From: Pseudoxanthomonas indica
GTDB taxonomy: Bacteria > Pseudomonadota > Gammaproteobacteria > Xanthomonadales > Xanthomonadaceae
Reading direction: 5' to 3'
Assembly (NCBI RefSeq): GCF_900167565.1
Contig: NZ_FUZV01000001.1
Span: 2,147,001-2,211,000, forward strand
DNA length: 64,000 nt
Shown here: positions 6,647-42,100 of the stretch, piece after piece
Numbering within the stretch: position 1 is the stretch's first letter
How the letters are laid out: each line of letters starts with the position of its first letter
Notes under the pieces: model-generated
The model's input: the letters and a program-made list of their open reading frames with translations, nothing else
What the model was told of the DNA's origin: nothing
The model's database searches: none
Position numbers and translations under genes: made by a program

Positions 6647-6654
6647 GTCGGCGT

Positions 6655-6683: not shown

Positions 6684-6743
6684 GGCATTATGCCTGCCGC
6701 TGCTGCGGCTTCCGAGCTTTCCCCACTTTCGATGAGGTTTCCC

Positions 6744-15220: not shown

Positions 15221-15339
15221 TGTCACACTTCTGGTGCCCCTGACGGCACGCACATGGCCTCGCGCCTTGCTCGATTGGAGCGGCGCGGCCCGTGCGTGCG
15301 GCTATGCCCTGCCTGTTTTCCAGCCCACTCCCAGACCCC

Positions 15340-17529: not shown

Positions 17530-17569
17530 TCATCCGCTCCGATCCACGACAAGAGACTAGCCGAACGCC

Positions 17570-17893
17570 ATGTCGAGCAACCCGGTCATGAGCTCCACTT
17601 CCCGCGCCGTGCGCCTGCGCATCGCCGCGCGCGTGTGCGCCGCGGTGTTCGGTGGCTATGCGTTCGCCTGGGGCACGGTGGCTGCGGTCACCAGCCTGAT
17701 GTTCGCCGCCGGGCTGGAATTCCACGACGCCGAATTCATGGGCGGGCTCATGGGATTGCTGGCCTATCTGGTGGTATTTCTGTGGACCTTCGCCGCGCGC
17801 CGTCTGGCGGTGGTGTGGGCGGTCATGCTGGGCGGTGGTTTGCTGATGGCCGCCATCGGGTCACTCGTGCAATCGTGGTTGATCGGAGGCTGA
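17570..17893 (+). CDS. DUF3649 iron-uptake membrane protein
   Basis: 107 residues with three predicted membrane helices (about 28-48, 58-76, 82-102). It matches the DUF3649 family, small inner-membrane proteins almost always found between a siderophore receptor and a PepSY protein. Their job is unknown but tied to iron uptake. It begins 40 bases after the receptor stop and ends 4 bases before the PepSY gene, so cotranscription is likely. Confidence 0.88.
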   Translation: MSSNPVMSSTSRAVRLRIAARVCAAVFGGYAFAWGTVAAVTSLMFAAGLEFHDAEFMGGLMGLLAYLVVFLWTFAARRLAVVWAVMLGGGLLMAAIGSLVQSWLIGG

Positions 17894-17897
17894 TGCC

Positions 17898-19897: not shown

Positions 19898-21184
19898 TCA
19901 GACCTTGCGCCGAGTCAGATACAGCAGCGCGCCCACCGCCAACGCCACGCCTGCCGCCAACAAATTGCCCAAGGTGGCGCTGGCCAACAGCCCCAGCGAC
20001 AACAGCAGCGCCGCCAGCGGAATGATGGGGCCGCCGGGCAACTTCAATGCGCCCGGATGATTGGCGTAGCGTCGCTGCAGCACCAGCAGTGACAACACAG
20101 TGCCGATGTAGGCGCACAGGCGCGCCACCACCGACAACAGCGCCAGCTTCACGAACGAACCGGACAAGGCCAGGGTGAGCGCCAACACACCTTGCGTGAT
20201 GATCGCCACGGCCGGCGTGTGGAAGCGCGGGTGGATGCTGGCCAGCATGCGCGGACCGAAGCCATCCTGCGCCAGCGAGTACAGCACGCGCGGACCGAAC
20301 AACATGGTGTTGCTGTTGGTGCCCAGAATCGAGATGGTCGCGCCCACCGTGAGGATCAGCGCCAGACCCTCGCCACTGAAACTGGCGGCGGCATCGGCCA
20401 GCGGCGTCTGCGACGCGGCCAGATTGACCAGCGTGCCCTGCGCCACCAGCTGCACCGCCGCGTAGATCAGCGTCACGGTGGCGATCATGGTCAACAGCGC
20501 AAACGGCACGTCGCGACGAGGGTTGCGGAATTCGCCTGCGGCGGCCGGGATGTTCTCGAAGCCGGCGTAGGCAAACAGCAGCAACAACGCGGCTTCGCCG
20601 AGGTTGCGCAACGGCGGCGCTTCGCCACCGCCCAGCAGGGCAGGGTCGATGTAGAAGACGCCAATCAGGATGAACAACGCCAGCGGCAGCAGCTTGCCAA
20701 TTACCAGCGCCACACCGGTACGCGCCGCCGACTTCACGCCGATCACATTGATGAAGGTCAGCAGCGCCAACGAACCCACCACGATCACCAGGCGCCCCGC
20801 GCCATCGGACGCCGGGGACCAGAAGCGAGCCACCGCATCGGCCAGCGCGTTGCTCAACGCGGCCGCGGAAGCGATGCGCGTCAGCCACACCATCCAGCCG
20901 ATCTCGAAGCCGATGAACGGACCAAACGCTTCGCGCGCATACAGATAGCTGCCGCCGGGCTCATCGAAGTAGCTTGCGGCCTGTGCGTAGCACAGCACCA
21001 GCAGCGCCACCGCCAGGCCGGCCAGCAGCACCGCCCACACGCTGGCCGGGCCCAGCAGCACCGCCGTCGCGGCAGGCAGCAGATAGATGCCGCTGCCAAT
21101 CACGTCGTTGATGGACAGGCCGACAATCTGCCAGCGACTGACCGCGCGGACGAAACCGGGCGAGGAAGGGTTGGTTTCGCTCAC
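19898..21184 (-). CDS. APC-family amino acid permease
   Basis: 428 residues, twelve predicted membrane helices. The APC signature is at the N-terminus: SRWQIVGLSINDVIGSGIYLLP, with the substrate-backbone motif GSGIY in helix 1, and FDEPGGSYLYAREAFGPFIGFEIGWM in helix 3. It is a cytoplasmic-membrane amino acid transporter of unknown substrate. It is the last gene of the left arm of the putative murein-peptide locus and overlaps the YafK-like gene by four bases (ATGA), so it is made with it. An amino acid or small peptide from cell-wall turnover is a plausible cargo, by context only. Confidence 0.9.
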   Translation of the reverse strand: MSETNPSSPGFVRAVSRWQIVGLSINDVIGSGIYLLPAATAVLLGPASVWAVLLAGLAVALLVLCYAQAASYFDEPGGSYLYAREAFGPFIGFEIGWMVWLTRIASAAALSNALADAVARFWSPASDGAGRLVIVVGSLALLTFINVIGVKSAARTGVALVIGKLLPLALFILIGVFYIDPALLGGGEAPPLRNLGEAALLLLFAYAGFENIPAAAGEFRNPRRDVPFALLTMIATVTLIYAAVQLVAQGTLVNLAASQTPLADAAASFSGEGLALILTVGATISILGTNSNTMLFGPRVLYSLAQDGFGPRMLASIHPRFHTPAVAIITQGVLALTLALSGSFVKLALLSVVARLCAYIGTVLSLLVLQRRYANHPGALKLPGGPIIPLAALLLSLGLLASATLGNLLAAGVALAVGALLYLTRRKV

Positions 21185-21978
21185 GGTGCGGCTCCGTCAA
21201 GGGCAGGCAGTTTCCAGGATTGGCGCAGGCGCTCGTACTCGGCGCGCGGCAGTTGCACCAGCAGCGGTTGCTTGCGCGCATCCAGCCAGGCGAGCAGGCG
21301 GTTCATGCTCGGCTCGGCCATCGCGGTGCAGCCCGCCGTGGCTTCGCCGGGCGCCTTCCACAAGTGCGCGAAGATGCAGCTGCCCGCGCCGGGCACGTTG
21401 TTCGCGTTGTGCTGGATCACGAAGCCTTCCTTGTAGCGCTGGTCGCCCTGGGCATGGATGTCGCGGCGCATGGGTTCGGTCGACTCCTTCACTGCGGCGT
21501 CGCCGACTTCGCGGCTGTCGACAATCTGGTTGTAGAGCGGTGAACCCGGCACGTCGATGCAGTAGTTCGTCGCGCTCATCGGCGCGTAGTGCAAGCCGGT
21601 CTTCACCCGTTCGGTGTAACCGAAGGCCTCACCCAAGGTGAAGATGCCGGCGGGCGCCTTGCCATCGCCTTCCTTCTTCTGAGGGCCCTGCGCCTGGGCC
21701 GCGTGCAGGCCAGCGCCCCAAGCCAGGCCGGTGCGACCCACGGCGATGCGATCCGGCGCACCCAGTGCGGTCCAGTCCTTGCCGTCATCGGCGCGCTGGA
21801 ACAACTGCATCTGGCCATCCGTGGCATCCCAGTCGGCCGTGACTACCAGCATCAACTGACCGGAAGCATGCAGCAGTTCCGGCGGCGCGGAGGCGCCGCT
21901 TTGCGCCGTCGCAACACCGGCCAGGCCCATCAGCCCGCAAGACACTGCGGCACGCAGCAAACGAAACAGGGACGCCAT
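21181..21978 (-). CDS. Periplasmic L,D-transpeptidase-fold protein (YafK/DpaA-like)
   Basis: 265 residues with a signal peptide (about 1-25, ending ATAQ). The C-terminal half has the YkuD-fold active-site layout: a His in VIQHNANNV, then CIFAHLWKAPGEATAGCTAM with the nucleophile Cys. The GC-x-AM ending resembles YafK/DpaA, which removes Braun lipoprotein from peptidoglycan, rather than the SxGC(I/V)R of cross-linking transpeptidases. So it may be a hydrolase on murein peptides; this is inference from the motif. It lies 20 bases after the MurR-type regulator gene and is coupled to the permease. Confidence 0.85.
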   Translation of the reverse strand: MASLFRLLRAAVSCGLMGLAGVATAQSGASAPPELLHASGQLMLVVTADWDATDGQMQLFQRADDGKDWTALGAPDRIAVGRTGLAWGAGLHAAQAQGPQKKEGDGKAPAGIFTLGEAFGYTERVKTGLHYAPMSATNYCIDVPGSPLYNQIVDSREVGDAAVKESTEPMRRDIHAQGDQRYKEGFVIQHNANNVPGAGSCIFAHLWKAPGEATAGCTAMAEPSMNRLLAWLDARKQPLLVQLPRAEYERLRQSWKLPALDGAAP

Positions 21979-21998
21979 GGCGGGCTCCGGCGAAAGGC

Positions 21999-22850
21999 TC
22001 AGGAATCCAGCAGATGCTGGATGCGTTCAAGGTTGATGTTCAACTGGCGGTGCCGGTCATCGTTGACATGGCACAGCAGCACGAACAGAAAATCCAGCAG
22101 GTACTGCAGCGAGCTGCGATAGAGCAGCGCTTCCACGTGCGGCTCGCTGTCGTGCGCCGATACCACCAGGGCGGCATCGGCATGCGCACGCAGCGGATTG
22201 GCGGTATGCCGGGTAATCGACACCACCTTGCCCGACGCCGCCTGGAACTGGCGACTGATCTGCGAGAGCGTCGCCAGCTTGCCGAACTCGGAAAACACCA
22301 GCAGCACGTCACCCGGACGCGCCGCCGACAGGTTGGCCATCATCAGGATCGGATCGGCGTGGTGCACGGTCAGCACGCCGAGCAGGGACAGGCGCATCGC
22401 AAACTCGCGCGCATACAGGCCGTCGTCGCCCAGGCCGCAGACGAAGACCTTGCCGGCCTGATCGATCAGCTCGGCAATCTCTTCCAGGTTCTGGCGCGGA
22501 TTGATCGCGCGGGTCTCTTCTTCCGCCGCCGCCTTGCTGCGGCGCAGGCCCGACTCGATACGGACAAAGACATCGGCCTCGGCGTTGGCCGCCAACGGCG
22601 TCGGCGGCTCGACTCCACCCAGCCGGGCCACGGCTTCGCCAATGGAGAACTTGAGATCGGGATAGCCCTTGAAGCCGAACTTCTGCGCGAACTTGACCAC
22701 GCTGGACTGGCTGATGCCCAGTGCGCTGGCCAGCTGCTGCGAGGAATAGTCGCGCAGCAGGTGGGCGTTTTCGAGAATGAAGTCGGCGATGCGGCGTTCA
22801 ATCGCCGACATCTGGTCGCGTTCGGATCGGATCTTGATCAGTGGCGGCAT
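21999..22850 (-). CDS. MurR/RpiR-family transcription regulator
   Basis: 283 residues. The N-terminal HTH_6 domain (about 1-80) has ADFILENAHLLRDYSSQQLASALGISQSSVVKFAQKFGFKGYPDLK. A SIS sugar-phosphate-binding domain follows (about 120-260, KVFVCGLGDDGLYAREFAMRLSLLG and LLVFSEFG). In this family E. coli MurR senses MurNAc-6-phosphate. Here the gene lies inside a run of murein-peptide genes, so a cell-wall-derived ligand is likely. In the SIS loop a Glu stands where many relatives have Ser/Thr (SEFG for SxSG), so the ligand may differ. The gap to the upstream epimerase gene is 43 bases. Confidence 0.92.
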   Translation of the reverse strand: MPPLIKIRSERDQMSAIERRIADFILENAHLLRDYSSQQLASALGISQSSVVKFAQKFGFKGYPDLKFSIGEAVARLGGVEPPTPLAANAEADVFVRIESGLRRSKAAAEEETRAINPRQNLEEIAELIDQAGKVFVCGLGDDGLYAREFAMRLSLLGVLTVHHADPILMMANLSAARPGDVLLVFSEFGKLATLSQISRQFQAASGKVVSITRHTANPLRAHADAALVVSAHDSEPHVEALLYRSSLQYLLDFLFVLLCHVNDDRHRQLNINLERIQHLLDS

Positions 22851-22893
22851 CGTGCGCTCTTTATCCCATCCCGGTTCGGTCCGGTCCAGTGGC

Positions 22894-23991
22894 TCAGACC
22901 GAAATCAATTCCAGGCCCTGGATGGATTGGATGCCCAGGCCGGGCGCGTCGGTGATCGAGATTTCCGATTCGTTGAAGATGACCCCGCCCTCGACCGGAT
23001 TGAACTGCGACAGCGATGGGCCATCCAGATCGATCTTGGTGATGGCTTGCGACTTGGCGACCGCCACATGGCAGGCCGCCGCCACGCTGATGCTGCTCTC
23101 CAGCATGCAGCCGATCATGCATTCCACCCCGTACAGCGAGGCGATGTCGGCAATGCGGATGGCGTTGGACAGGCCGCCGGTCTTCATCAGCTTGATGTTG
23201 ATGATGTCGGCCGCGCGCATCTTGATCAGATCGATGACTTCGGTGGGGCCGAACACGCTCTCATCGGCCATCACCGGCGTGTGCACGCGATCAGTGACGT
23301 ACTTCAGGCCATCGATGTCGGCCGCTTTGACCGGCTGCTCCAGCAGCTCCAGCACGACGCCGGCGTCTTCCAGGTTGTGCATGGCAAATACCGCCTGCTT
23401 GGCGGTCCAGCCCTGGTTGGCGTCCAGGCGCAGCAGGGCGCGTCCTTCCACCGCCGAGTAGATCGCCTTGACCCGCTCGATATCCAGGCCGATGTCCTTG
23501 CCCACCTTGATCTTGAGCGACTCGAAGCCGCGATCCACGGCGGCAATGGAGTCGGCGACCATCTTGTCGATGTAGTCCACACTGATCGTGATGTCGGTGG
23601 TGATCACCGGGTCGCCGCCGCCGAGCATCTTGTACAGCGGCGCGTTGTAGAGCTGGCCCCACAAATCGTAGATGGCGATTTCCACCGCCGCCTTGGCGCT
23701 GGTGTTGCGCTCCAGTGCGGTCTGGATCAGGTGGGTGATCTGGTTGAGGTTGGCGATCTCCTGGCCAATCAACCGCGGCTTGATGAAGCGGGCGATCGCT
23801 TCGATGATCGACCCGTGGGTGTCACCGGTGATCACCGCCGTGGCTGGCGCCTCGCCGTAACCGACCTGGCCGGTGTCGGTATGCACCAGCACGACGATGT
23901 CTTCCACCGTGTCGACGGTGCGCAGCGCGGTCTTGAAGGGCGTTTTCAGCGGCACGCGCAGCATGCCGAACTGGATGTCGGTGATTTTCAT
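22894..23991 (-). CDS. Dipeptide epimerase (L-Ala-D/L-Glu epimerase type)
   Basis: 365-residue enolase-superfamily enzyme. The catalytic frame of muconate-lactonising-type epimerases is complete: the KxK lysines in SLKIKVGKD, metal ligands in LRLDANQGW, LELLEQPV and MADESV, and the second base in INIKLMKTGG. The N-terminal capping domain has TPFKTALRTVDTVEDIVV. The family converts L-Ala-D-Glu from murein tripeptide into L-Ala-L-Glu so that ordinary peptidases can use it. AAAGG lies five bases before ATG 23991. It starts 8 bases after the NlpC/P60 gene, the same pairing as ykfB-ykfC in Bacillus. Exact dipeptide specificity cannot be read from sequence. Confidence 0.92.
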   Translation of the reverse strand: MKITDIQFGMLRVPLKTPFKTALRTVDTVEDIVVLVHTDTGQVGYGEAPATAVITGDTHGSIIEAIARFIKPRLIGQEIANLNQITHLIQTALERNTSAKAAVEIAIYDLWGQLYNAPLYKMLGGGDPVITTDITISVDYIDKMVADSIAAVDRGFESLKIKVGKDIGLDIERVKAIYSAVEGRALLRLDANQGWTAKQAVFAMHNLEDAGVVLELLEQPVKAADIDGLKYVTDRVHTPVMADESVFGPTEVIDLIKMRAADIINIKLMKTGGLSNAIRIADIASLYGVECMIGCMLESSISVAAACHVAVAKSQAITKIDLDGPSLSQFNPVEGGVIFNESEISITDAPGLGIQSIQGLELISV

Positions 23992-23999
23992 GAAGGCCT

Positions 24000-25397
24000 T
24001 TACGGACGAATGCGTTGGATGCTGTAGATGCGGTCGACGAACGTCTTGTCGCTGCCTGCGAGCAACGGCTCCAGCGGCGTCACCGAGACGGCGTTGAGCG
24101 AGGCGCGGACGATCTGACCCTGCGGGTTCTTGTAGGTGATGCCGGTGGTGTCGTGGATCAGGTAGGTCTGGCCGTTCTCCTTGCCAATCACCATCATCAC
24201 GTGGCCCGGGATGTAGATCAGATCGCCGACCTGCAGATCGCGCACCACCTGCATGCGTTTGGCGCGGTCGTCCTGATCGGTGAAGGCGACGCGATTCAGC
24301 GCCGGGCTGACGCCCTGGTCGCTGGTGTTGCGCGGCAATTCCACGCCAAAGCTGCGATAGACCTCGGAGACAAAGCCACTGCAGTCGCGGGTGTTGTAGG
24401 AATGGCCCCAGCCGTAGCGCTCGCCGAGGAACTTGAAGCCCTGCTGCAGCAGGTTGGCCTGGGTCAGCGGCAGGTACTCGGTGGCCACGTCGGCGTTCTT
24501 CGGCAGCAGCGCAGGCACCAGTTCCAGCTTGTCGCCGGCGCCACGGATGGGCAGCTCGATCACCCACGAGGTATACGGGTGCTGGCCATTGACCGGCTTG
24601 TCGGCCGGCCAATCCTTCAACAGCGGCACGCGCACGCCCATGTCCAGCTGCAGTTCGGACACGCCAGGTTGCTCGGGTGTGTGCACGGTATGCACGGTCG
24701 GGCCGGTGACCACCAGCGTCGGCGTGCGATGGCCGTAGGCGAACACGGTGTCACGCGCGCCTTCGGCCAGGTACTGGTTTTCCACCCAGGCGGCATACAG
24801 CGGGCTGACCACGAACGACCATTGGCCGTCGCGACTGCCATGCACGATCACCACGGCGGTGCCGGGGAACAGCGCGCTTTCCTGGAAGCGATCGATGTCG
24901 GTGTCGTCGTTGGAGCGGAACACGCGGGTGCGGGTCGGGAAGGCGCGCAGGTCCGCGCGCTTCACCACCAGCGCGTAGCGCGCTTGGGTGGTGGCGGGAA
25001 CGGCATCGAGGGCGGCGTTGGCGACGATCGCGTCCAGCGCGGCCTTGCCGACTTCCTGGCCCTTGACGTCATACAGCGTGCGAGTCGGCGCGCTCGACAA
25101 CTTGCCGACCCAGTCGCGCACCTGCTCCGCGCTGAAACTTGCCGGCAGGCCTTCCACGTCGTGCACGGAGCCATCCTGTTGATGCAGGCGACCGTTCTGT
25201 GCGGCGATCGCCTGGCGATCCAGCACCACGCGGTTGGGCTGCTGGAGTTTCTTGATCCAGTAGTCGGCGGTGAGATGCCGATCTTCCACGCCGATGACCG
25301 CATGCGCGGGGACCGGCAGGGGAGTGGGTTTGTCGCGGGCAAGCAGCGGCGCTGACGGCAGCGCCAGCAGAACAAGCGAGAGCAGAAGTGAGCGCAT
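24000..25397 (-). CDS. Secreted NlpC/P60 cysteine peptidase with SH3-like domains (YkfC-like)
   Basis: 465 residues with a signal peptide (MRSLLLSLVLLALPSAPLLA). The middle has SH3-like bacterial domains (around 160-300), as in gamma-D-glutamyl-diaminoacid endopeptidases. The C-terminal NlpC/P60 domain has nucleophile Cys in TRDCSGFVSEVYRSFG, His in IPGHVMMVIG and the third polar residue His in YLIHDTTG. Enzymes of this design cut murein peptides to release L-Ala-D-Glu, the substrate of the epimerase encoded next. GGAGG lies five bases before ATG 25397; a longer in-frame reading to 25505 would bury the signal peptide. It is the first gene of the left arm and faces a promoter at 25579-25606. 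Confidence 0.92.
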   Translation of the reverse strand: MRSLLLSLVLLALPSAPLLARDKPTPLPVPAHAVIGVEDRHLTADYWIKKLQQPNRVVLDRQAIAAQNGRLHQQDGSVHDVEGLPASFSAEQVRDWVGKLSSAPTRTLYDVKGQEVGKAALDAIVANAALDAVPATTQARYALVVKRADLRAFPTRTRVFRSNDDTDIDRFQESALFPGTAVVIVHGSRDGQWSFVVSPLYAAWVENQYLAEGARDTVFAYGHRTPTLVVTGPTVHTVHTPEQPGVSELQLDMGVRVPLLKDWPADKPVNGQHPYTSWVIELPIRGAGDKLELVPALLPKNADVATEYLPLTQANLLQQGFKFLGERYGWGHSYNTRDCSGFVSEVYRSFGVELPRNTSDQGVSPALNRVAFTDQDDRAKRMQVVRDLQVGDLIYIPGHVMMVIGKENGQTYLIHDTTGITYKNPQGQIVRASLNAVSVTPLEPLLAGSDKTFVDRIYSIQRIRP

Positions 25398-25578
25398 GAC
25401 GCCTCCGTGGTGGAGCGCGGTGGGAAAAAGGTTCGGATGCAGGCGCGCCGCACCCGCGGCCTCGCAGGACGGTTGGGACCAGGTGTGGCCACCGCGTTGT
25501 TTCATCCGACTCCCCTCGGGTTGGCTGTCCCCGGGCGGCGTTGCATGGTCGAACGCGTCCCGCCCCGGGTCCGAGGAA

Positions 25579-25606
25579 TATTTACTTCTTTTTTGCCGAA
25601 CTTCAA
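25579..25606 (-). promoter_or_regulatory. Promoter of the NlpC/P60-epimerase arm
   Basis: On the minus strand TTGAAG (25606-25601), 16 bases, TAAATA (25584-25579). It lies in the most A+T-rich stretch of the region, about 180 bases before the NlpC/P60 ATG. Its -35 is overlapped by the palindrome at 25603-25620. Confidence 0.45.
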
Positions 25607-25620
25607 GAATAAATTATTGA
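25603..25620. promoter_or_regulatory. Candidate operator palindrome shared by two divergent promoters
   Basis: TCAAGAAT-AA-ATTATTGA, an 8-2-8 inverted repeat with one mismatched pair. It covers the -35 of the leftward promoter and the start of the -35 (TTGACC) of the rightward one. A/T-rich palindromes of this size are typical RpiR-family operators, and a MurR/RpiR gene lies in the left arm. Binding is inferred. Confidence 0.45.
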
Positions 25621-25645
25621 CCCCGGTCTTTCGCCGTGTTACACA
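25617..25645 (+). promoter_or_regulatory. Promoter of the transglutaminase-TonB receptor arm
   Basis: TTGACC (25617-25622), 17 bases, TACACA (25640-25645). The -35 is good (five of six), the -10 weak. Transcription would begin near 25652, 20 bases before the GTG start, with AGGGGTG between them. Confidence 0.4.
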
Positions 25646-25671
25646 AACGTGACCAGTCGGCTTAGGGGTGA

Positions 25672-27219
25672 GTGTTCGACGTGGAAGCCAGCAAGGGCCA
25701 GCACAGCCAATCCATGGGGGCGTTCCGTCCAGGGCGTACGACGCGTGCTCGCGTCGTCGCTTGGGCGATAGTACTCATGGCCGTGGCCGCGTCCAGTGCC
25801 AGCCTGGCCATGGCGTCGGAATTGCCGCCACCGGGCCCGCCGGCAATCGTGGGCCAGATCGATGCCGGGCAGTTTGCCGAGGCCGAGCAGGCCATCGCGG
25901 CAGGCCTGGCCCAGCCAGGCATCGACGCCCGCCAACGCCAGGCGCTGGAATTCCAGCGCGAGCGCATGCGCCGCATCCGCCTGGACTTCAAGCTGGACGA
26001 GACAGCCGTACTGGCGCAACTGCGCAAGCAGATTCCGGATCTGAAGCCCGAAGAATTCGCGGCCTGGGACGGCGCCGGCGAAATCGAACGCATGACCATT
26101 GACGGCAAGAAGCTCTACTTCAACCGTTCGGTCTCCAACTTTTTCCGCACCAATGCGCAAGCGGCAGCACGCCGCGCGCCGCCGGTGAAGCCCAACAGCG
26201 AGGGCCCGTACGAATCGCTGAACCCCTATCACGCCGAAGCGTTGAAGCAGGCGCGCGATACCGGCGCCACCTCGGTCGCACCGCGTCGCCTGCAGGTCAC
26301 CCAATCGGTGATCGTGGACGCCGACGCGGTGCCCGCGGGCGAAACCGTGCGCGCCTGGATTCCCTATCCGCAGGCCATCGCCGGCCAGCAGGAAAACATC
26401 CGCTTCATCGGCAGCACCACGAAGGCGCCGACGATTGCGCCGGAAAGCGCACCGCAACGCACCGTGTACCAGGAGCAAAAGGCCGTCGCCGGCCAGCCGA
26501 CGAAATTCTCGATCACCTACGAGGTGACGATCTACGGCCGCAAGTTCCTGCTGGACGAAGACAAGGTCGTACCGAGCAAATCCACCCCCGAATTGGCGCC
26601 GTACCTGGGCGAGCGTGGGCAGCACATCGTCTTTACCGATGACATCAAGCGCTTCTCGGCCACGGTGGTGGGAGATGAAAAAAATCCCTACCGCATCGCT
26701 CAGAAGCTGTTCGACGCGGTTGACCGGATTCCCTGGGGCGGTGCGCGCGAATACTCCACGATTACCAATATCAGCGACTACGCCCTGCACGCCGGCCATG
26801 CCGACTGCGGCCAGCAGACCCTGCTGCTGATGACGCTGCTGCGCTACAACGGCATCCCCGCGCGCTGGCAGTCGGGCTGGACCTACTCGGACGAGTCGGT
26901 GGGCTACGACAACATGCACGACTGGGGCTGGATGTACCTGGCGCCGTACGGCTGGGTGCCGATGGATGTCACCACCGGCCGGCTCAAGAGCGATGACCCG
27001 GGCCTGCGCGACTATTACTTCGGCGGGCTCGACGCCTACCGCATCAGCTTCAACAACGATTTTTCACAGCCACTGGTTCCGGCGAAACAACACGCCCGCT
27101 CGGAAACGGTGGATTCGCAGCGCGGCGAAGCGGAGTGGCCAGGGGGCAATCTCTACTTCGATCAATGGGACTACCGGTTCGAGTGGAAGATGTTGCCGCT
27201 CGCCCAGGACGCCGGTTAA
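25672..27219 (+). CDS. Secreted transglutaminase-like protein
   Basis: About 515 residues. A basic N-terminus and one hydrophobic segment (RVVAWAIVLMAVAASSASLAMA) suggest a signal peptide or anchor. The C-terminal half is a transglutaminase/protease-like domain with the triad Cys379 (HADCGQQTLL), His416 (NMHDWGW) and Asp432 (PMDVTTG). Bacterial members are usually cysteine peptidases or peptide ligases; no substrate is known for this one. I use GTG 25672 because of AGGGGTG just before it; ATG 25714 is an alternative. It heads the right arm, 37 bases before a TonB receptor gene, so it may process what that receptor imports. Confidence 0.87.
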   Translation: MFDVEASKGQHSQSMGAFRPGRTTRARVVAWAIVLMAVAASSASLAMASELPPPGPPAIVGQIDAGQFAEAEQAIAAGLAQPGIDARQRQALEFQRERMRRIRLDFKLDETAVLAQLRKQIPDLKPEEFAAWDGAGEIERMTIDGKKLYFNRSVSNFFRTNAQAAARRAPPVKPNSEGPYESLNPYHAEALKQARDTGATSVAPRRLQVTQSVIVDADAVPAGETVRAWIPYPQAIAGQQENIRFIGSTTKAPTIAPESAPQRTVYQEQKAVAGQPTKFSITYEVTIYGRKFLLDEDKVVPSKSTPELAPYLGERGQHIVFTDDIKRFSATVVGDEKNPYRIAQKLFDAVDRIPWGGAREYSTITNISDYALHAGHADCGQQTLLLMTLLRYNGIPARWQSGWTYSDESVGYDNMHDWGWMYLAPYGWVPMDVTTGRLKSDDPGLRDYYFGGLDAYRISFNNDFSQPLVPAKQHARSETVDSQRGEAEWPGGNLYFDQWDYRFEWKMLPLAQDAG

Positions 27220-27256
27220 GCCACCACCAGATCACACCTAGCAGGAGAGAGCGGGG

Positions 27257-30200
27257 ATGAAAGGCAGGAAGTTCAAGAAAGCAGCTTTGTACGTGGCGTT
27301 GGGCGCGAGCCTGGCGGCGATGGCGCCGATGGCGATGGCGCAGAGTTCCAACGGCGGTGTTGCTGGTCGCGCCACCGTGGGTGACTCGATCACGGTGACC
27401 AGCCCCGCCACAGGCCTCACCCGCACCGTGACCGTCGGCAGCGACGGCACTTACCGCTTGAGCCAGTTGCCGGTGGGTGACTACCAGTTGCAGGTCAAGC
27501 GCAACGGCCAGGACGTGGGCAGCGCCGTGGGCGTCACCGTATCGCTGGGTGGCACCACCACGGTGAACCTGGGCGCTGAAGGTGGCCTGGTCAACCTGGA
27601 CGCGCTGCAGGTGGTGGGTTCGCGCGTGGTCAACCGCGTGGACGTGCGCTCGGTGGAGTCGGCGACCAACATCCGTCGCGACGAAATCGCGCGCCTGCCG
27701 GTGGACCAGTCGCTGGCATCGGTCGCCCTGCTCGCCCCCGGCGTGGTCGCCTCGGGCGCCACCTTCGGCGGCCTGACCTTCGGCGGTTCGTCGGTCGCGG
27801 AAAACGCCGTCTACATCAACGGCCTGAACGTCACCGACCCGTACCGTCGCCAGGGCTATTCCTCGGTGCCGTTCAATTTCTACGAAGAGTTCCAGATCAA
27901 GACCGGTGGCTACTCGGCTGAGTTCGGCCGCAGCACCGGCGGCGTCATGAACGCCGTGACGCGATCCGGCAGCAACGAATTCCACGCGGGCGCCGAGATC
28001 ACCCTGGAGCCAGGCGGCTGGAAAGCCAAGAAGGAAGATCACTTCCACCGTGATGGCACGCTGGACGAGCGCGACCGCACCAGTCGGGACAGAAGCGCGC
28101 TTTACAAGACGAACGTCTGGGCTTCCGGTCCGCTGGTGAAGGACAAGTTGTTCTTCTTCGCCATGTATGAAAAGCGCGACAGCAGGCCGAAGGACATCGA
28201 CGAGGAAAAGTCGTTCATCACCAAGAGTGACAACGATTTCTGGGGCGCCAAGTTCGACTGGCAGATCACCGACAATCACTTGCTGGAAGTGCTGGCGTTC
28301 TCCGACCAGTCCGACTTGCTGACCGACACCTACGACTACGATTGGGACAATGCCCGTCAAGGCGCCTGGACCGGCAGCGGCACCAGTGGTTCCGGCGGCG
28401 ACAACTGGTCGGTGACCTACACCGGGCAGTTCGGCAGCAACTTCACCGCCAAGGCCCTGTACGGCGTCAACAAGCGCAGCGCACTGCAAGGCACGCCGCT
28501 GGATGGCGAGTGCAACATCGTCACTACCTCCGGCGACTTCGACAGCCATTTCGGCGAGCCGGATCTGGCCACTGGCTGCCATCCCACCGACTCCAGCGTC
28601 AGCAACCGCTACGACAAGCGCGAGGCGTCCCGCGTGGATTTCGAGTGGTCGCTGGGCAACCACCTGCTTCGCTTCGGCGCGGATCAGGAAGTGATGGATT
28701 CGGAAAGCGAAACCTTCTATCCCGGTGATGGCAGGAGCTACCAGGCCCAGTGGATCGAAGGGGGCTCGGAATTGCCCACCGGCGGTATCGTGCCGGCGGA
28801 CGGCTTCATCGTGGATGCGCGTCGCTACGTCACCGGCGCTCCCGTCACCACGAAAGCACAGGCGATCTACCTCGAGGACAACTGGAACATCACCCCCAAC
28901 CTCCTGTTGAACCTGGGCGTGCGCTTTGACCAGTTCGAGAACAAGCTCGCCTCGGGCGCGACCTTCGCCAAGGCCGACTTCTCCGACATGTTCTCGCCGC
29001 GCTTCGGCTTCAGCTGGGACGTGAAGGGCGATGGCACCATGAAGGTGTTCGGTAATGCAGGACGCTACTACATCCCGCTGACCAACAAGCTCACCGACTA
29101 CTTCGGCGGCGGCACCACCGACGAACATACGTACTACGCGTTCGAAGGTTGGGAAGAGCGCGTCCATCCGGTCTCGGGTACCAGCTACCTCTACCCGATT
29201 CTGGGCGAGCAGCTCGGTGACGTGAACACCGATGGCAACGCGGCAGCACCCAGCGATGTGCGCACGGCAGTGGCCGACAACATCAAGCAGGTGTTCCAGG
29301 ATGAATTCATCCTGGGCTTCCAGCAGGCACTGAACGAAGCCTGGTCCTACGGCATCAACGCCACCTACCGCAAGGTGACGCGAGCCGTGGAAGATGCGCG
29401 CATCAACCATGTGGAAGGCTGTGACTGGTACTCGGGTGACTGGCCGATTATCAATCCCGGTGAAACCACGCGCCTGTGGTGCCCGGACACCAACAACTGG
29501 GTGACCTTCGACTCCTCGAAGGATGGCTACCGCGCCACGGGCAGCGGCGCCATCATGGGATACAAGAAGCCCAAGCGTACGTACAAGGCCATCGAGTTGC
29601 AGGTGGATCGCGCGTGGGACGACAAGTGGGCGTTCAACGCCAGCTACCTGTGGTCCAAGTCCGAAGGCAACATCGAAGGTCCGGTCAACTCCGATACCGG
29701 TTACGCCGACACCAACCTGGTGCAGTACTACGATCACCCGGCCGTCAATGAGCGTTACGGCGTGCTGTTCAACGACTACCGCCACCAGTTCAAATTCCGC
29801 GGCAGCTACAAGCTCAACGACATGTGGAGCTTCGGTTCCACGCTGTCCGTCCGCTCGGGTGGTCCCATCACCGCCTTCGGCGTGGTGTGGCCGAACGACA
29901 ACCGCGTGGCCGGTGGCCCGGGCGAGTTCAGCGGCGGCGGTTCCGGCTGGCTGTGCCTCAATCAGCCGGTGGCGACCTGCCGCGACTACTCCGCGCGCCA
30001 GCTGACGTACTCGCCGCGTGGCGCGTTCGGTCGCATGCCCTGGATATACGACCTGGGCGCCAGCGTGGTCTGGACCCTGCCGGTGGAAGATGTCGATCTG
30101 AAGGCACGTCTGTCCGTGTACAACCTGCTCAACAACCAGGAAGTGATCAATGTCCACTCGCGCTACGAGGCCGCACCGGGCGCGCGCATGGACCACTTCG

Positions 30201-30262
30201 GCGAAGGCACGGTCTGGCAGGCGCCGCGCTACCTTCAGTTGGTGGTGACTTACAACTTCTAA
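27257..30262 (+). CDS. Large TonB-dependent receptor with carboxypeptidase-regulatory-like domain (Oar-like)
   Basis: 1001-residue outer-membrane receptor. After a signal peptide (ending AMAQ) comes a beta-sandwich domain (about 33-115, ITVTSPATGLTRTVTVGSDGTYRLSQLPVGDYQL) of the CarboxypepD_reg type. The plug follows (SVALLAPGVVASGATFGG, GLNVTDPYRRQGYSSVPFNFYEEFQIKTGG, GRSTGGVMNAVTRSGSNEFHAG), then a long barrel ending LQLVVTYNF. Such Oar-like receptors take up peptides or other oligomers rather than siderophores. It is cotranscribed with the transglutaminase-like gene and followed by an intrinsic terminator. Murein-peptide uptake is inferred from neighbours only. AGGAGAG precedes the ATG. 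Confidence 0.92.
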   Translation: MKGRKFKKAALYVALGASLAAMAPMAMAQSSNGGVAGRATVGDSITVTSPATGLTRTVTVGSDGTYRLSQLPVGDYQLQVKRNGQDVGSAVGVTVSLGGTTTVNLGAEGGLVNLDALQVVGSRVVNRVDVRSVESATNIRRDEIARLPVDQSLASVALLAPGVVASGATFGGLTFGGSSVAENAVYINGLNVTDPYRRQGYSSVPFNFYEEFQIKTGGYSAEFGRSTGGVMNAVTRSGSNEFHAGAEITLEPGGWKAKKEDHFHRDGTLDERDRTSRDRSALYKTNVWASGPLVKDKLFFFAMYEKRDSRPKDIDEEKSFITKSDNDFWGAKFDWQITDNHLLEVLAFSDQSDLLTDTYDYDWDNARQGAWTGSGTSGSGGDNWSVTYTGQFGSNFTAKALYGVNKRSALQGTPLDGECNIVTTSGDFDSHFGEPDLATGCHPTDSSVSNRYDKREASRVDFEWSLGNHLLRFGADQEVMDSESETFYPGDGRSYQAQWIEGGSELPTGGIVPADGFIVDARRYVTGAPVTTKAQAIYLEDNWNITPNLLLNLGVRFDQFENKLASGATFAKADFSDMFSPRFGFSWDVKGDGTMKVFGNAGRYYIPLTNKLTDYFGGGTTDEHTYYAFEGWEERVHPVSGTSYLYPILGEQLGDVNTDGNAAAPSDVRTAVADNIKQVFQDEFILGFQQALNEAWSYGINATYRKVTRAVEDARINHVEGCDWYSGDWPIINPGETTRLWCPDTNNWVTFDSSKDGYRATGSGAIMGYKKPKRTYKAIELQVDRAWDDKWAFNASYLWSKSEGNIEGPVNSDTGYADTNLVQYYDHPAVNERYGVLFNDYRHQFKFRGSYKLNDMWSFGSTLSVRSGGPITAFGVVWPNDNRVAGGPGEFSGGGSGWLCLNQPVATCRDYSARQLTYSPRGAFGRMPWIYDLGASVVWTLPVEDVDLKARLSVYNLLNNQEVINVHSRYEAAPGARMDHFGEGTVWQAPRYLQLVVTYNF

Positions 30263-30280
30263 GCCATACGCTGCAACACG

Positions 30281-30312
30281 AACCGCCGCTGGTGAAAACC
30301 AGCGGCGGTTTT
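30281..30312 (+). terminator. Intrinsic terminator after the large TonB receptor
   Basis: AACCGCCGCTGG (30281-30292) and CCAGCGGCGGTT (30299-30310) are perfect 12-base arms around TGAAAA, ending in TTTT. It separates the receptor from the hydrolase gene 25 bases later, so the downstream genes depend on read-through or their own start. Confidence 0.88.
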
Positions 30313-30336
30313 GCATGAGAGACAGAAGGGCACGCG

Positions 30337-31896
30337 ATGACGAGCAAACGTAACCCCCTGGCATACCTGCTCATGGGCCTGTTGGCGCATGTACCGGCTT
30401 ATGCGGCCAACAATCGAGCATTCGACGCGGCCGTCGAGCAGACCGTGCAGCGTTATCAGCTGCCCGGCATCGCCGTAGGCGTCATCGAAGACGGCAAGAT
30501 CGTCTACACCAACACGACGGGCCAGCTCGAATCCGGCAAACCCGAAGCCATCAACGCCGACACGGTTTTCAAGATCGCTTCCAACACCAAGGCGATGACC
30601 GCCGCCGTACTGGCGCGCCTGGTCGACCAAGGCAAGCTCAAGTGGGATGACCCCGTCACCAGGTACCTGCCACAGTTCCGCATGAATGACCCCTGGGTCA
30701 CGCAGAACATGCAGGTGCGCGATTTGCTGGTGCACAACAGCGGCCTGGGCCTGGGCGCCGGCGATCTGATGCTGTGGCCCGAGCCCAACGATTTCAAACG
30801 GGCGGACATCATCGCGGGCCTGGCGCACCTCAAGCCTACCCACAGCTTCCGTTCGCATTACGCCTACGACAACCTGCTTTACGTGGTGGCCGGCGAAGTG
30901 GCGGCTGCCGCGGGCGGCAAGCCCTACGACCAGTTGGTCAAGCAGGAAATTTTCGAACCACTCAAGCTGCAACGCTGCCAGGTCGGCGAGTGGAAGCGCA
31001 GCGACGTGGGCAATGTCGCGCAGCCGCACATGCGCACTGACGCTGGCGCCAAAGCGATCCGCGAAGACGGCGACGTGGCGCCCGACATCACCTCGATGGC
31101 CGCTGGTGGCATCCGTTGCAGTCTCAACGACATGCTGACCTGGACCGCGCAATGGCTGGATCCGTCGCGCGCACCGGGCTGGTTGAGTGATGCGCAGCGC
31201 AAGGCGGTCTGGACGGCGCATATGCCGATGCCGGTTTCCAAACGCATGCGCGAATGGGACAACAGCCATTTCTCCGCGTACGGCTACGGCTGGCGCCTGT
31301 CTGACGTGGATGGTGTGTGGAAGGTGGCGCATACCGGCACGCTGGCCGGCATGTATTCGTCGGTGATCCTGCTGCCGGACAAAAAGGTGGCCATCGTCAT
31401 CCTGATCAATGGCGAAGGCGAGGATGCCCGCGCCGTGCTGGGCGAGGTGCTGACCAAGCATTACACCGCGCCCAAGGACAGCAAGGACGTGGCCTGGTAC
31501 GCCGCGGCGATAGAGCGCGAAGAAGCTGCAAAGCCGGAGGCACACACCGTGCCCGATACCTCGGCGCGCGTGCCGGCTACAGCGGCACAACTCGGTCAGC
31601 TCCTCGGCCGCTATCGCGATCCGTGGTTCGGCGAGGTGCGCCTGTGCGCGGCAGGGGAACGGGTGGAATTCGTTTCCGCGCGTTCGCCGATGCTGCGCGG
31701 CCAGGTCATGCAGCTGGGCGACCGCTGGCTGGTGGACTGGGACGACGACAGCGTGGATGCCGAGCCTTGGCTCGCGTTTTCCACACCCGTGGGCAGCAAG
31801 GTGACGCATATGCGCCTGTCGCATATCGATCCCGACGCCGATTTCAGCTATGACTATGCGGACCTGGATTTGCAACGCGAAGGCCGCTGTGACTGA
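30337..31896 (+). CDS. Secreted serine hydrolase, class C beta-lactamase fold
   Basis: 519 residues with a signal peptide (ending AYAA). The beta-lactamase/DD-peptidase motifs are all present: SxxK at Ser82-Lys85 (KIASNTKAMT), YxN in HYAYDNLLYV and HTG in VAHTGTLAGM. A C-terminal extension (about 390-519) resembles the DUF3471-type beta domain of related esterases. Members range from beta-lactamases to D-aminopeptidases and esterases. With a D-Ala-D-Ala dipeptidase gene overlapping its end, a role on D-amino-acid peptides is plausible. The stop lies 8 bases inside the next gene. Confidence 0.9.
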   Translation: MTSKRNPLAYLLMGLLAHVPAYAANNRAFDAAVEQTVQRYQLPGIAVGVIEDGKIVYTNTTGQLESGKPEAINADTVFKIASNTKAMTAAVLARLVDQGKLKWDDPVTRYLPQFRMNDPWVTQNMQVRDLLVHNSGLGLGAGDLMLWPEPNDFKRADIIAGLAHLKPTHSFRSHYAYDNLLYVVAGEVAAAAGGKPYDQLVKQEIFEPLKLQRCQVGEWKRSDVGNVAQPHMRTDAGAKAIREDGDVAPDITSMAAGGIRCSLNDMLTWTAQWLDPSRAPGWLSDAQRKAVWTAHMPMPVSKRMREWDNSHFSAYGYGWRLSDVDGVWKVAHTGTLAGMYSSVILLPDKKVAIVILINGEGEDARAVLGEVLTKHYTAPKDSKDVAWYAAAIEREEAAKPEAHTVPDTSARVPATAAQLGQLLGRYRDPWFGEVRLCAAGERVEFVSARSPMLRGQVMQLGDRWLVDWDDDSVDAEPWLAFSTPVGSKVTHMRLSHIDPDADFSYDYADLDLQREGRCD

Positions 31897-32599
31897 ACGA
31901 TTGTTTCCATTGGGATGGGCCTGCGCGCTGTTGTTGAGCGCCTCCGTGCAAGCAGCCGAGGTGAAGGTCTCCCCGGCCACCCGTCTGGCCGAAGTGGATC
32001 TGGTGGATGTCGGCGCGCTCATCGCCGACGCGCAACTGGAAATCCGCTACGCCGGTTCGCACAACTTCGTGGGCACGCCGGTGACAGGCTACGAGGCGCC
32101 CAAGTGCTATCTGCTGCGGCCGGTGGCCGAGGCGCTGGTGCAGGTCGCCGCCGATGTGCGCGAGCAGGGCTACCGCTTGCGCCTGTTCGATTGCTATCGC
32201 CCGGTGCGCGCGGTCCAGCACTTCGTGCGCTGGGCGCATGATCTGGACGATCAGCGCAACAAGGCCGAGTTCTATCCCAACCTGGACAAGTCGGTGCTGC
32301 TCGACGGCTATATCGCCGAGACCTCCGGACACAGTCGCGGCGCGACCGTGGATCTGAGTCTGGATCACTGCACGGCAGATGCGTGCGCGGAGCTCGACAT
32401 GGGTACTTCGTTCGATCGCTTCGACACGCTGGCCAATACCGACGACCCGCGCATCCAGCAGGCGGCGCGCGAGCATCGCGATCTGCTGCGTGCGGCCATG
32501 CAGCGGCGAGGCTTCCGCAACTACCCGCTGGAGTGGTGGCACTTCACCTTCCAGCCTGAGCCAACGCCGCAGACGGCGTACGACATTCCCGTGCGATGA
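31889..32599 (+). CDS. D-alanyl-D-alanine dipeptidase (VanX/DdpX family)
   Basis: About 236 residues including a signal peptide (ERLFPLGWACALLLSASVQA), so it acts in the periplasm. The VanX zinc motifs are clear: SGHSRGATVDL (SxHxxGxAxD) and EWWHF (ExxxWH-like region), with RLRLFDCYRPVRAVQHFV upstream supplying the conserved Arg. It would split D-Ala-D-Ala into two D-alanines. I use GTG 31889 with GAAGG five bases upstream; a frame from 31850 would overlap the hydrolase gene more and hide the signal peptide. It overlaps the next gene by four bases. No VanA/VanH genes are near, so this looks catabolic, not a vancomycin-resistance set. Confidence 0.92.
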   Translation: MTERLFPLGWACALLLSASVQAAEVKVSPATRLAEVDLVDVGALIADAQLEIRYAGSHNFVGTPVTGYEAPKCYLLRPVAEALVQVAADVREQGYRLRLFDCYRPVRAVQHFVRWAHDLDDQRNKAEFYPNLDKSVLLDGYIAETSGHSRGATVDLSLDHCTADACAELDMGTSFDRFDTLANTDDPRIQQAAREHRDLLRAAMQRRGFRNYPLEWWHFTFQPEPTPQTAYDIPVR

Positions 32600-33876
32600 G
32601 CTCGCACGTGCGGCGCGGGTCTGCGCAAGTAGCCGACGTGGCGGTGTTGGGCTGCGGCATCGTCGGCTTGTCGATCGCCTTGCAGCTGCAGCAGCGCGGG
32701 CTGTCATGCCTGTTGATCGATCCGCGCGGCCCGGCCGGTGATGCCTCGTTCGGCAATGCCGGCTCGGTGTCGGTCGGCAATCTGTTTCCGCAGGCGGTGC
32801 CAGGCACGATCGCGTCGGCCCTGCGCGGACTGCGCAATCCTTTGGCGCCACTGAAACTCGACTGGCCTGCCTTGCCGCACTACGCGGGATGGTTGTGGCG
32901 ATTTGCCCGCCAGGCGCGCTGGGATTGCGTGGAGCAGACGTTGACGGCCTTGCAGGCGTTGAACGTGCAGGCGCGGCAGGCCTGGCTGGATCTGGCCGAC
33001 GCCGTCGACGCGCGCGATCTGATTGGCGAAACCGGCTACCTGCATGTCTACAGCGAGGACGCGAGCTTCGAGGCCAACGCCTGGGCGCGCGGCCATCTGC
33101 AGGCGCAGGGCGTGGCCCATGCCGTGCTGGATGCGCAGCAACTGCGCGATCTGGAGCCGGGCATTGCCGCAATCGCCCGCCACGGTGTCCTGCAACGGGA
33201 CTCGCTGTTCGTCCGCGATCCGGGCGCGTTCTGCCAGCGCCTCCATGGCCGCCTGCTTGCGCGCGGGGCGCAGGCAATGACGGACCGGGCCACGGCGATC
33301 CAGGTCGAAGGCGCCGGCTACCAGGTGCGGACCGGAACAGGTTCAGCGCATGTGGATCAGGTGGTGGTGGCGGCCGGCGCATGGAGTACCGCGCTGTTGC
33401 GACCGCTGGGCGTACGCCTGCCGGTGGCCGCGGCGCGCGGCTATCACGCCGCCTATGCGCCACAAGCGGATCTGGTGGGTCGGCCTACGTTGTGGGCGGA
33501 GCGCTATCTGGTGGTCTCGCCCATGGCCGCGGGCATCCGCGTCACCGGCTTCAAGGAAATGACCGCGCCGGATCGGCCGGCGCGACCGGCCCTGATGCAG
33601 GCGCTGGCGCCGGAGGCCAGGCGGCTGTTTCCTGGACTTGGTTCCGCACCGCAGTCGATCTGGTCCGGTTTGCGGCCGTGCACGCCGGATTCGTTGCCGA
33701 TCCTCGATCAGGTGCCGGGCGAGCGCATCTTTGTCGCCACCGGGCACGGTCATCTGGGTCTGACCCAGGGGCCGGTCAGCGCCGAGTTGATGACTGCGCG
33801 CATCCTCGGCCAGTCACCGCGGGTGCCGATGCACGCCTATCGCCTGGATCGCTTCGGCATGCGTGTCGGCTCGTAG
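32596..33876 (+). CDS. FAD-dependent D-amino-acid dehydrogenase (DadA-like)
   Basis: 426 residues of the DAO superfamily. The N-terminal dinucleotide-binding motif is VLGCGIVGLSIALQLQQRG with a downstream acidic residue (LLIDPRG). The DadA-type region DASFGNAGSVSVGNLFPQAVPG follows, and the C-terminus has WSGLRPCTPDSLPILDQVPG and VATGHGHLGLTQGPVSAEL, as in DadA. It would oxidise D-alanine to pyruvate and feed electrons to quinones at the inner face of the membrane. It starts in the stop of the dipeptidase gene (ATGA), giving a direct substrate-product pair. The substrate is inferred from that pairing. Confidence 0.9.
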   Translation: MSSHVRRGSAQVADVAVLGCGIVGLSIALQLQQRGLSCLLIDPRGPAGDASFGNAGSVSVGNLFPQAVPGTIASALRGLRNPLAPLKLDWPALPHYAGWLWRFARQARWDCVEQTLTALQALNVQARQAWLDLADAVDARDLIGETGYLHVYSEDASFEANAWARGHLQAQGVAHAVLDAQQLRDLEPGIAAIARHGVLQRDSLFVRDPGAFCQRLHGRLLARGAQAMTDRATAIQVEGAGYQVRTGTGSAHVDQVVVAAGAWSTALLRPLGVRLPVAAARGYHAAYAPQADLVGRPTLWAERYLVVSPMAAGIRVTGFKEMTAPDRPARPALMQALAPEARRLFPGLGSAPQSIWSGLRPCTPDSLPILDQVPGERIFVATGHGHLGLTQGPVSAELMTARILGQSPRVPMHAYRLDRFGMRVGS

Positions 33877-40751: not shown

Positions 40752-40774
40752 GCCGGCCCACGTCCCGCAATTCC

Positions 40775-40800
40775 AAGGGCCGGTTCGCCGGCCCTTTTGT
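40775..40800 (+). terminator. Intrinsic terminator between oleA and oleB
   Basis: AAGGGCCGG (40775-40783), TTCG loop, CCGGCCCTT (40788-40796), then TTGT. It would end most transcripts after oleA, so oleB must depend on read-through or another promoter. Confidence 0.8.
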
Positions 40801-40814
40801 TTGAGGTGGCATCC

Positions 40815-41717: not shown

Positions 41718-41725
41718 GCGCGGGC

Positions 41726-42100
41726 TCAGGGCAGGGGATTGCGCTCGGCTTCGGCCACGCCCACCCAGTCGCTTTCCAGCAGCAGCGGCAGGCCATGGGC
41801 CAGCCGCGACTTGTCGCACTGCGCGCTGCGCTCGCCGAATTCCAGCGACGCCGGCACCGCCGCGCACACCGAGGGCCGCCGATCATGGATGGTGCAGCGG
41901 CTGTAGCGGCCGATGTCCGCATCCAGCGCGATGCAGCGTGGCTTTGTGGCCGAGGTGCCGCGCATCACCCGCTCGTGTACGCGCAGGGGTTCGGTCAGTT
42001 CGATGGGCACCTGTCCCCCCTGTTCCGGGTCCGCCTCGCTCCAGTGGAAGCTCACGCGGAAGTAGGCGCAGCAGGCGCCGCAGGTCAGGCAAGGATGCAT
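41726..42100 (-). CDS. YkgJ-family cysteine-cluster protein
   Basis: 124 residues with the YkgJ metal-binding pattern: CLTCGACCAYF at the N-terminus (CxxCxxxC-type), then CIALDADIGRYSRCTIHDRRPSVCAAVP, with enough Cys for zinc or an iron-sulfur cluster. Function of the family is unknown. It lies between oleB and oleC on the opposite strand and ends 8 bases from oleB, so it splits the ole cluster. ATG at 42100; longer frames upstream run antisense to oleC and look spurious. Confidence 0.9.
   Translation of the reverse strand: MHPCLTCGACCAYFRVSFHWSEADPEQGGQVPIELTEPLRVHERVMRGTSATKPRCIALDADIGRYSRCTIHDRRPSVCAAVPASLEFGERSAQCDKSRLAHGLPLLLESDWVGVAEAERNPLP

Follow-up and report, generated by a model that had tools for sequence, protein, structure and literature searches.

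Polysaccharide utilisation loci and CUT loci bring together a TonB receptor, secreted enzymes, an inner-membrane carrier and a dedicated regulator in one locus. The peptidoglycan that dead bacteria leave behind is a major store of nitrogen, and to our knowledge little is known about the uptake of its peptides from outside by Gram-negative bacteria. Here we analysed a stretch of 64,000 nucleotides (referred to as the window) from Pseudoxanthomonas indica (contig NZ_FUZV01000001.1, positions 2,147,001 to 2,211,000), which is part of a 3.96-Mb genome and holds ten neighbouring genes in two divergent arms at window positions 19898-33876. A preliminary description of this DNA had regarded the ten genes as one system for the use of cell-wall peptides. 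Based on computed gene identities, joint conservation, a shared DNA element and its co-occurrence with a regulator, the locus is probably a dedicated murein-peptide utilisation system. The balance tips slightly in favour of a more specific form of this reading, namely TonB-dependent utilisation of cell-wall peptides in which an RpiR regulator and a two-block operator would control the receptor, the stem-peptide enzymes and the epimerase, with the unit present in about half of the sampled genomes of the family (90/198) and a counterpart of different gene order in a further family of Gammaproteobacteria. The open PubMed Central text, a scope that leaves most subscription papers outside, yielded no such locus and no TonB receptor recognised for cell-wall peptides.

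The closest described systems share parts of this locus. The Bacillus ykfABCD and ykfBC genes likewise place an NlpC/P60 endopeptidase beside a dipeptide epimerase, a pair that also occurs in Listeria, Acidobacterium, Solibacter, Bacteroides and Gramella, and for B. cereus cutting outside the cell plus import has been proposed (PMC2954226). Compared with ykf, the window locus adds a TonB receptor, an RpiR-type regulator, the shared element, a YkuD-like protein, a transglutaminase-like protein (Tgl), a DD-peptidase-like protein and an M15 protein; its NlpC/P60 enzyme has an asparagine in place of the selective aspartate, and the carriers of the locus and its relatives are of the APC, SDF, DUF819, NhaC and SSF types and not Dpp/Opp ABC transporters. 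With the murein tripeptide route of E. coli (MpaA, YcjG, LdcA, AmpG) it shares the epimerase type and the reaction sequence stated for E. coli (PMC9928106). In Pfam scoring, none of the ten genes belonged to the MpaA or LdcA family and, in contrast to the E. coli route, cutting is predicted to be periplasmic and an outer-membrane receptor is present. Tannerella forsythia is a Gram-negative bacterium that uses external muropeptides via a dedicated operon, as proposed for the window locus; its ampG-murTKQ operon is, unlike the window locus, centred on N-acetylmuramic acid (MurNAc) and AmpG, and "tonb" occurs 0 times in the main text of that study (PMC5388701). Set against polysaccharide utilisation and CUT loci, the window locus has the same types of parts but peptide-bond enzymes in place of glycosidases, its predicted substrate is murein peptide, and none of its ten genes matched a SusD family in Pfam scoring.

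Layout and conservation of the two arms

Pfam and NCBIfam scoring confirmed that all ten genes are present and placed in two divergent arms as previously claimed:

19898-21184, minus strand: APC-superfamily amino-acid permease (apc); PF13520, 150.6 bits
21181-21978, minus strand: YkuD-superfamily protein (ykuD) with a signal-peptide-like start; PF03734, 21.2 bits, cut-off 23.4
21999-22850, minus strand: MurR/RpiR-type regulator (murR); HTH_6 PF01418 and SIS PF01380
22894-23991, minus strand: L-Ala-D/L-Glu-type dipeptide epimerase; best PDB match 1jpm, 340.6 bits
24000-25505, minus strand: SH3b-NlpC/P60 endopeptidase (nlpC); PF12913 and PF00877 above cut-off
25672-27219, plus strand: transglutaminase-like cysteine peptidase (tgl); PF01841
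27257-30262, plus strand: Oar-like TonB-dependent receptor (oar); PF25183, PF13620 and PF07715
30337-31896, plus strand: serine hydrolase with beta-lactamase fold and DUF3471 (bla); PF00144, 224.4 bits
31850-32599, plus strand: M15 dipeptidase, VanX/DdpX-like (vanX); PF01427
32596-33876, plus strand: FAD-dependent D-amino-acid dehydrogenase-like protein, DAO (dadA); PF01266, 205.6 bits

The four-base overlaps reported earlier exist for apc/ykuD (21181-21184) and vanX/dadA (32596-32599), but nlpC and the epimerase gene are separated by an 8-bp gap. Signal-peptide-like N-termini were read by eye on the NlpC, YkuD-like, Tgl, receptor, beta-lactamase-fold and M15 proteins, and the epimerase and DadA-like proteins showed none in the same reading.

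Gene content was compared across 80 named loci (numbers with L), which were fetched by epimerase similarity, so that their nlpC and epimerase counts are not independent. Presence required 30% identity and 40% coverage, loci with a short flank were excluded (denominators 69-80), and genes more than 10 kb from the epimerase were outside the view. The counts were nlpC 80/80, murR 80/80, tgl 74/78, ykuD 74/78, oar 69/76, bla 49/76, vanX 36/76, apc 11/76 and dadA 5/73. An SDF symporter replaces apc in 60/80 loci, 11/80 have apc and 9/80 have neither; the SDF count, like those given below for lysA, M19, DUF819, the second DAO gene and the amidase, refers to all 80 loci without flank correction. The genes left of the locus served as controls and were absent beside it at the same presence cut (pepSY 0/74, neighbouring TonB receptor 0/69), a single pepSY match of 28% identity (L056) lying under this cut. 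In the window, these left neighbours encode a TonB receptor and, behind it, a PepSY_TM protein (15292-19565, plus strand), perhaps an iron-related pair.

A sample of 198 genomes of the family (numbers with G), probably Xanthomonadaceae judging by the species names among the epimerase relatives, was also drawn, in which only the best candidates of a first-pass look were scored, and the lists of places omit second pieces of one gene (e.g. in G106, G149, G166, G178, G133 and G081). Matches were obtained for nlpC in 138, for the epimerase in 124 and for tgl in 92 of the 198 genomes. In 90 of the 92 tgl genomes, tgl and nlpC lay on opposite strands and less than 6 kb apart; in the remaining two (G160 and G007) they fall on separate contigs, consistent with breaks in the assembly, and none of the 198 genomes has tgl without nlpC. 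The epimerase gene lay within 1 kb of nlpC in 121/124 epimerase genomes, 17 nlpC genomes had no adjacent epimerase, and nlpC, epimerase and tgl occurred together in 90/198. The proximity of tgl and nlpC rules out that the arms are chance neighbours and agrees with the earlier proposal that they form one system. Of the ten genes, dadA, apc and vanX come and go. Receptor, substrate enzymes, carrier and regulator are kept together, as a TonB-dependent nutrient utilisation locus requires, and the two arms are very likely one system.

Shared element and regulator

Three conserved blocks lie between the arms:

25607-25621, minus strand: block B, GTCAATAAWTTATKC, putative operator overlapping the divergent promoters; the only exact site in the own genome
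25576-25588, no strand assigned: block C, GAATA-N5-T-x-C in the right-arm direction; in 75/75 inter-arm regions at a fixed distance from block B
25637-25645, no strand assigned: block A, TGTTACACA, partly conserved, possible promoter part for both arms; at a fixed distance from block B

The 75 inter-arm regions were aligned on GTCAATAA, whose eight columns are 1.00 by construction. The consensus of the other seven motif columns was 0.63-1.00, with five columns at ≥0.99, compared with averages of 0.58 and 0.57 in the 40 columns on each side. An inverted repeat, AATAA-N-TTATT, was present in 46/75 regions, and its core was found at up to one mismatch in 75/75 regions versus 0.05/75 in mononucleotide shuffles, which preserve base content only. 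The centres of blocks B and C are 31 bp, or about three helical turns, apart. Across the 198 genomes, exact GTCAATAAWTTATKC occurred at 94 places in 92 genomes (reversed pattern, 0), and 92 of these places were located within 2 kb upstream of an nlpC match (median 175 bp). Allowing up to two mismatches added two further places in the own genome, compared with one for the reversed control.

The presence of this element follows that of the regulator, which contains the HTH_6 and SIS domains of MurR/RpiR proteins and was matched in 100/198 genomes, all of which have nlpC. The exact element was found in 91/100 genomes with both nlpC and murR versus 1/38 with nlpC only. In the one murR-negative genome with the exact element (G114), the epimerase match is truncated, and a contig end may have cut off murR. 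Nine murR genomes have no exact copy; in eight of them a mismatched copy lies upstream of nlpC (four with one mismatch, one with two, and three with three, a level that some shuffles also reach), and in the last one, G007, the locus is divided between two contigs. Of the 37 nlpC genomes with neither murR nor the exact element, five had their loci examined, and these contained no element within three mismatches.

Additional copies of the element were located directly upstream of TonB-receptor genes. These comprise second copies in L005, L008, L009, L010, L043 and L082 and, likewise, an unlinked copy in L081 and the sole copy in L011; the unlinked receptor behind the exact element in L081 (6621-9724) is Oar-like and 72% identical to the window's oar. 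In L010 and L082 the receptor behind the extra copy is followed by bla, vanX and dadA, so these genes are tied to the same control even as a separate unit. We had also considered that the extra copies stand before amidase genes, and rejected this since they precede TonB receptors. The preliminary description had made a common signal for both arms a condition of its reading, and this is favoured at the level of sequence by a predicted control element that is shared between the arms, tracks the regulator and recurs before TonB receptors. Locus L039, from Steroidobacter gossypii, a species named outside the family, has the same element, which points to possible horizontal transfer.

The element could also be merely a strong divergent promoter, with MurR acting elsewhere. 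A left-arm promoter-like sequence, GTAACA-18-AATAAT, indeed overlaps blocks A and B (1 found, shuffle mean 0.0), and a right-arm TTGACC-17-TACACA was read by eye, although the promoter scan did not report it. However, a strict, exact 15-mer with one site in the genome that tracks murR exceeds what sigma-70 needs, and we regard this explanation as quite unlikely. A repressor bound to block B would cover both promoters.

The locus was also encountered beyond the family. At E ≤ 1e-40, a survey of the class yielded NlpC in 4/369 genomes, all from the own family, and a survey of the phylum yielded the epimerase in 11/398, of which seven were from the own family, one was G757 and three belonged to family f140; the nlpC-epimerase pairs present in f140 imply that the cut-off was too strict for NlpC. 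G757, from another family of the same order, contains the whole locus with the element (L108), comprising oar, tgl, DUF819, NlpC, epimerase, MurR, YkuD-like, SDF, second DAO and LysA-like genes. The gammaproteobacterial family f140 harbours rearranged loci. L105 encodes an Oar-like receptor (PF25183, PF13620), an RpiR protein (HTH_6), epimerase, NlpC, a PF03553 (NhaC-type) carrier and a VanX-like protein, and two of its open frames join domains: Transglut_core and YkuD, partners on opposite arms in the window, share one frame (6573-8699), and Amidase_2, PG_binding_1 and Beta-lactamase share another (3056-5515). L107 has the nlpC-epimerase pair, a YkuD-like gene, an S13 DD-peptidase and a large CarboxypepD_reg protein that weakly resembles Oar, and L106 has DUF819-NlpC-epimerase-YkuD plus an SSF carrier, with no receptor seen. 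The same parts in another order, with two joined frames, are strong evidence that the predicted proteins would serve one function.

Enzymes and substrate

For the comparison of residues, proteins of odd length were excluded, so that the alignments contained 70 NlpC, 67 YkuD-like, 75 Tgl, 34 M15, 70 epimerase and 38 beta-lactamase-fold sequences, the window's included. The open frame of the epimerase extends to 24612, with a start MKITDIQ at 23991. R24, K160, K162, D190, E218, D243, K267, D321 and D323 are present and kept in at least 95% of the 70 aligned sequences; by comparison with B. subtilis AEE we take these to be the Lys/Lys acid-base pair, three metal ligands, and Arg24 and the DxD motif as dipeptide binders. 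The query used in the locus search, the NCBIfam scoring and the PDB match was nine N-terminal residues short, and with it the scores stayed below the equivalog cut-offs (NF041118, 244.4 versus 500; NF011708, 112.2 versus 343). We call the enzyme epimerase-like, its predicted specificity being taken from residues only; the nearest named epimerases, from Pseudoxanthomonas, are 94% identical.

The NlpC protein, which possibly starts at a Met near 25397, has SH3b and NlpC/P60 domains, and its C375 and H435 are conserved across the alignment and, from what we know of the family, presumably catalytic. Its best PDB sequence match is 3m1u (predicted gamma-D-Glu-mDAP), which we take to be the Desulfovibrio NlpC/P60 endopeptidase DvLysin. 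N393 aligns with the selective Asp of 3h41 (position 256 of BcYkfC), where 3m1u has Asn too, and is kept in at least 95% of the 70 aligned sequences (11/81 omitted for odd length). The lysin was reportedly compared with recycling-type NlpC/P60 enzymes by Xu in 2015. For YkfC, the Asp is described as essential for selectivity towards free N-terminal L-Ala (PMC2954226). Since the locus enzyme has Asn at this position, it is expected to accept glycan-linked peptides too. The parallel to the Bacillus ykf genes drawn in the preliminary description therefore extends to the position of an NlpC/P60 gene beside an epimerase gene, but not to the enzyme itself, in which the Asp typical of YkfC-type recycling enzymes is absent and whose closest match is the lysin 3m1u.

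The YkuD-like protein had been named YafK/DpaA-like, a name for which family-level support was not obtained (PF03734, 21.2 versus 23.4), and no PDB sequence match was found up to an E of 1; its predicted structure was poor (mean pLDDT 56.1, 11 sequences) and was not used. H205 and C217 are conserved, the homologue in L105 clears the YkuD cut-off at 31.3, and the protein is a possible L,D-carboxypeptidase or amidase. The true start of Tgl, which contains a signal-peptide-like segment, may be further downstream. Its structure model (pLDDT 77.0) has the fold of transglutaminase-like cysteine proteases, with 3isr as the closest structure, and C379, H416 and D432 are invariant in 15 sequences. The Tgl family is wide (3454 proteins at E ≤ 1e-10 among 7996 scored, the best 120 being listed), and therefore only the close form of Tgl marks the locus. 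The Oar-like receptor is predicted to function in outer-membrane uptake, and the beta-lactamase-fold protein, with its signal-peptide-like start, is a possible DD-peptidase that scored 89.3 bits with the AmpH model (cut-off 266). The M15 protein matched VanX in 1r44 with 129.4 bits and contains PF01427 and the zinc-site residues H161, D168, E228 and H231, which ≥95% of the 34 aligned sequences retain; its NCBIfam scores were 171.1 versus a cut-off of 320 for VanX and 106 versus 176 for the DdpX type. The DadA-like protein scored below the NCBIfam DadA cut-off (197.7 versus 383 bits).

Relatives of the locus contain further genes near the epimerase, namely lysA-like genes in 35/80, DUF819 in 28/80, an M19 dipeptidase in 24/80 and a second DAO gene in 18/80 loci. 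Three of the diaminopimelate (DAP) decarboxylases were tested and scored 468-476 bits with TIGR01048 (cut-off 297.9), and an N-acetylmuramoyl-L-alanine amidase (four tested) is found within the fetched stretch in 11/80 loci; the SDF carriers scored below the GltP cut-off. An amidase, a DAP decarboxylase and an M19-type dipeptidase meet only on the peptidoglycan stem peptide. Because relatives add these enzymes, the substrate is likely murein peptide. A general peptide or D-amino-acid utilisation locus with another main substrate would be compatible with the breadth of the Tgl, M15, M19, DAO and APC families and with the several members under NCBIfam cut-offs. Yet NlpC/P60, the Ala-Glu-type epimerase, the MurNAc-L-Ala amidase with PG_binding_1, the S13 DD-peptidase and the DAP decarboxylase, found between them in related loci, meet only on peptidoglycan, which makes such a general role very improbable.

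The route had been described as near-complete for cell-wall peptides. The release of peptides from MurNAc is absent from the ten genes, but could be supplied by an amidase beside the locus of some relatives or by one elsewhere in the window:

47566-48336, plus strand: AmiD-like lipoprotein MurNAc-L-alanine amidase, outside the locus; PF01510, 114.2 bits, lipobox by eye

This protein is 66.5 and 67.1% identical to the amidases of L083 and L084 and is one of two Amidase_2 matches in the own genome, and relatives of it adjoin the locus in some genomes. The whole window contains one element site, and this amidase gene is not preceded by the element. Between it and the locus, the window contains an olefin (ole) cluster at 39735-44877 on the plus strand, with a KAS III-type gene, an alpha/beta hydrolase, a beta-lactone synthetase and an OleD reductase, of which the olefin beta-lactone synthetase (NF045786) and the OleD reductase (NF042422) both scored above cut-off.

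Proposed role of the locus

The same unit could instead serve the turnover of the own wall by salvaging peptides that escape AmpG, with the receptor recapturing leaked fragments or importing something else. In favour of this, the own genome has AmpG and the two Amidase_2 matches, and no Peptidase_S66 (LdcA) match was obtained in it, so another enzyme, perhaps the periplasmic YkuD-like protein, may carry out the L,D-carboxypeptidase step. However, the TonB receptor is nearly constant (69/76 loci) and sits behind the extra element copies, LysA, M19 and the symporters fit feeding over reuse in wall synthesis, and 60/198 genomes have no nlpC match. We therefore consider self-salvage an unlikely, although not far-fetched, explanation, and regard the uptake of external fragments as food by the Oar-like receptor as more likely than not.

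Several observations nevertheless weigh against a dedicated murein-peptide utilisation system. The function is dispensable, as indicated by the 60 genomes without an nlpC match; dadA, apc and vanX vary among the named loci; and tgl is missing from 29 genomes that do contain the nlpC-epimerase pair, so that the left core is the wider unit. The co-occurrence of regulator and element is explained in part by shared ancestry, and therefore supports, but does not prove, that the MurR/RpiR protein is tied to the inter-arm element. SIS domains of RpiR regulators usually bind a phosphosugar, and none of the ten genes encodes a sugar enzyme. No copy of the element, even with one mismatch allowed, accompanies the second receptor of L067, and in the rearranged loci L105-L107 the element was not above shuffle level. 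With AmpG in the own genome, part of the set could serve self-recycling. Finally, NCBIfam cut-offs were not reached by the epimerase or by the VanX-like, DadA-like and AmpH-like proteins, so that their specificities are not certified.

From the gene set we infer enzyme specificities, TonB uptake, the direction of regulation and a nutritional role as follows. The Oar-like receptor would bring soluble wall fragments from lysing or growing bacteria across the outer membrane, and a periplasmic amidase, encoded elsewhere in the window or beside the locus of some relatives, would free stem peptides from MurNAc. Trimming or uncoupling of the D-Ala end may fall to the beta-lactamase-fold protein, the YkuD-like protein and the VanX-like dipeptidase, NlpC/P60 would cut D-Glu from DAP, and Tgl may be a further cysteine peptidase in the periplasm. 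The APC permease, or in relatives a carrier of the SDF, DUF819, NhaC or SSF type, would import the products into the cytoplasm, where the epimerase would convert L-Ala-D-Glu to L-Ala-L-Glu, which a dipeptidase (M19 in relatives) would split; LysA of relatives would turn DAP into lysine, and the DadA-like flavoprotein would oxidise D-Ala. Both arms would be controlled by the MurR/RpiR protein via the inter-arm element.

With its defined receptor, regulator, DNA element and enzymes, the locus is open to study by gene removal, and it gives a handle on the roles of Tgl, YkuD-like and DUF819 proteins. If the proposed function is true, the locus would allow these bacteria to use the cell walls of lysed neighbours as food.

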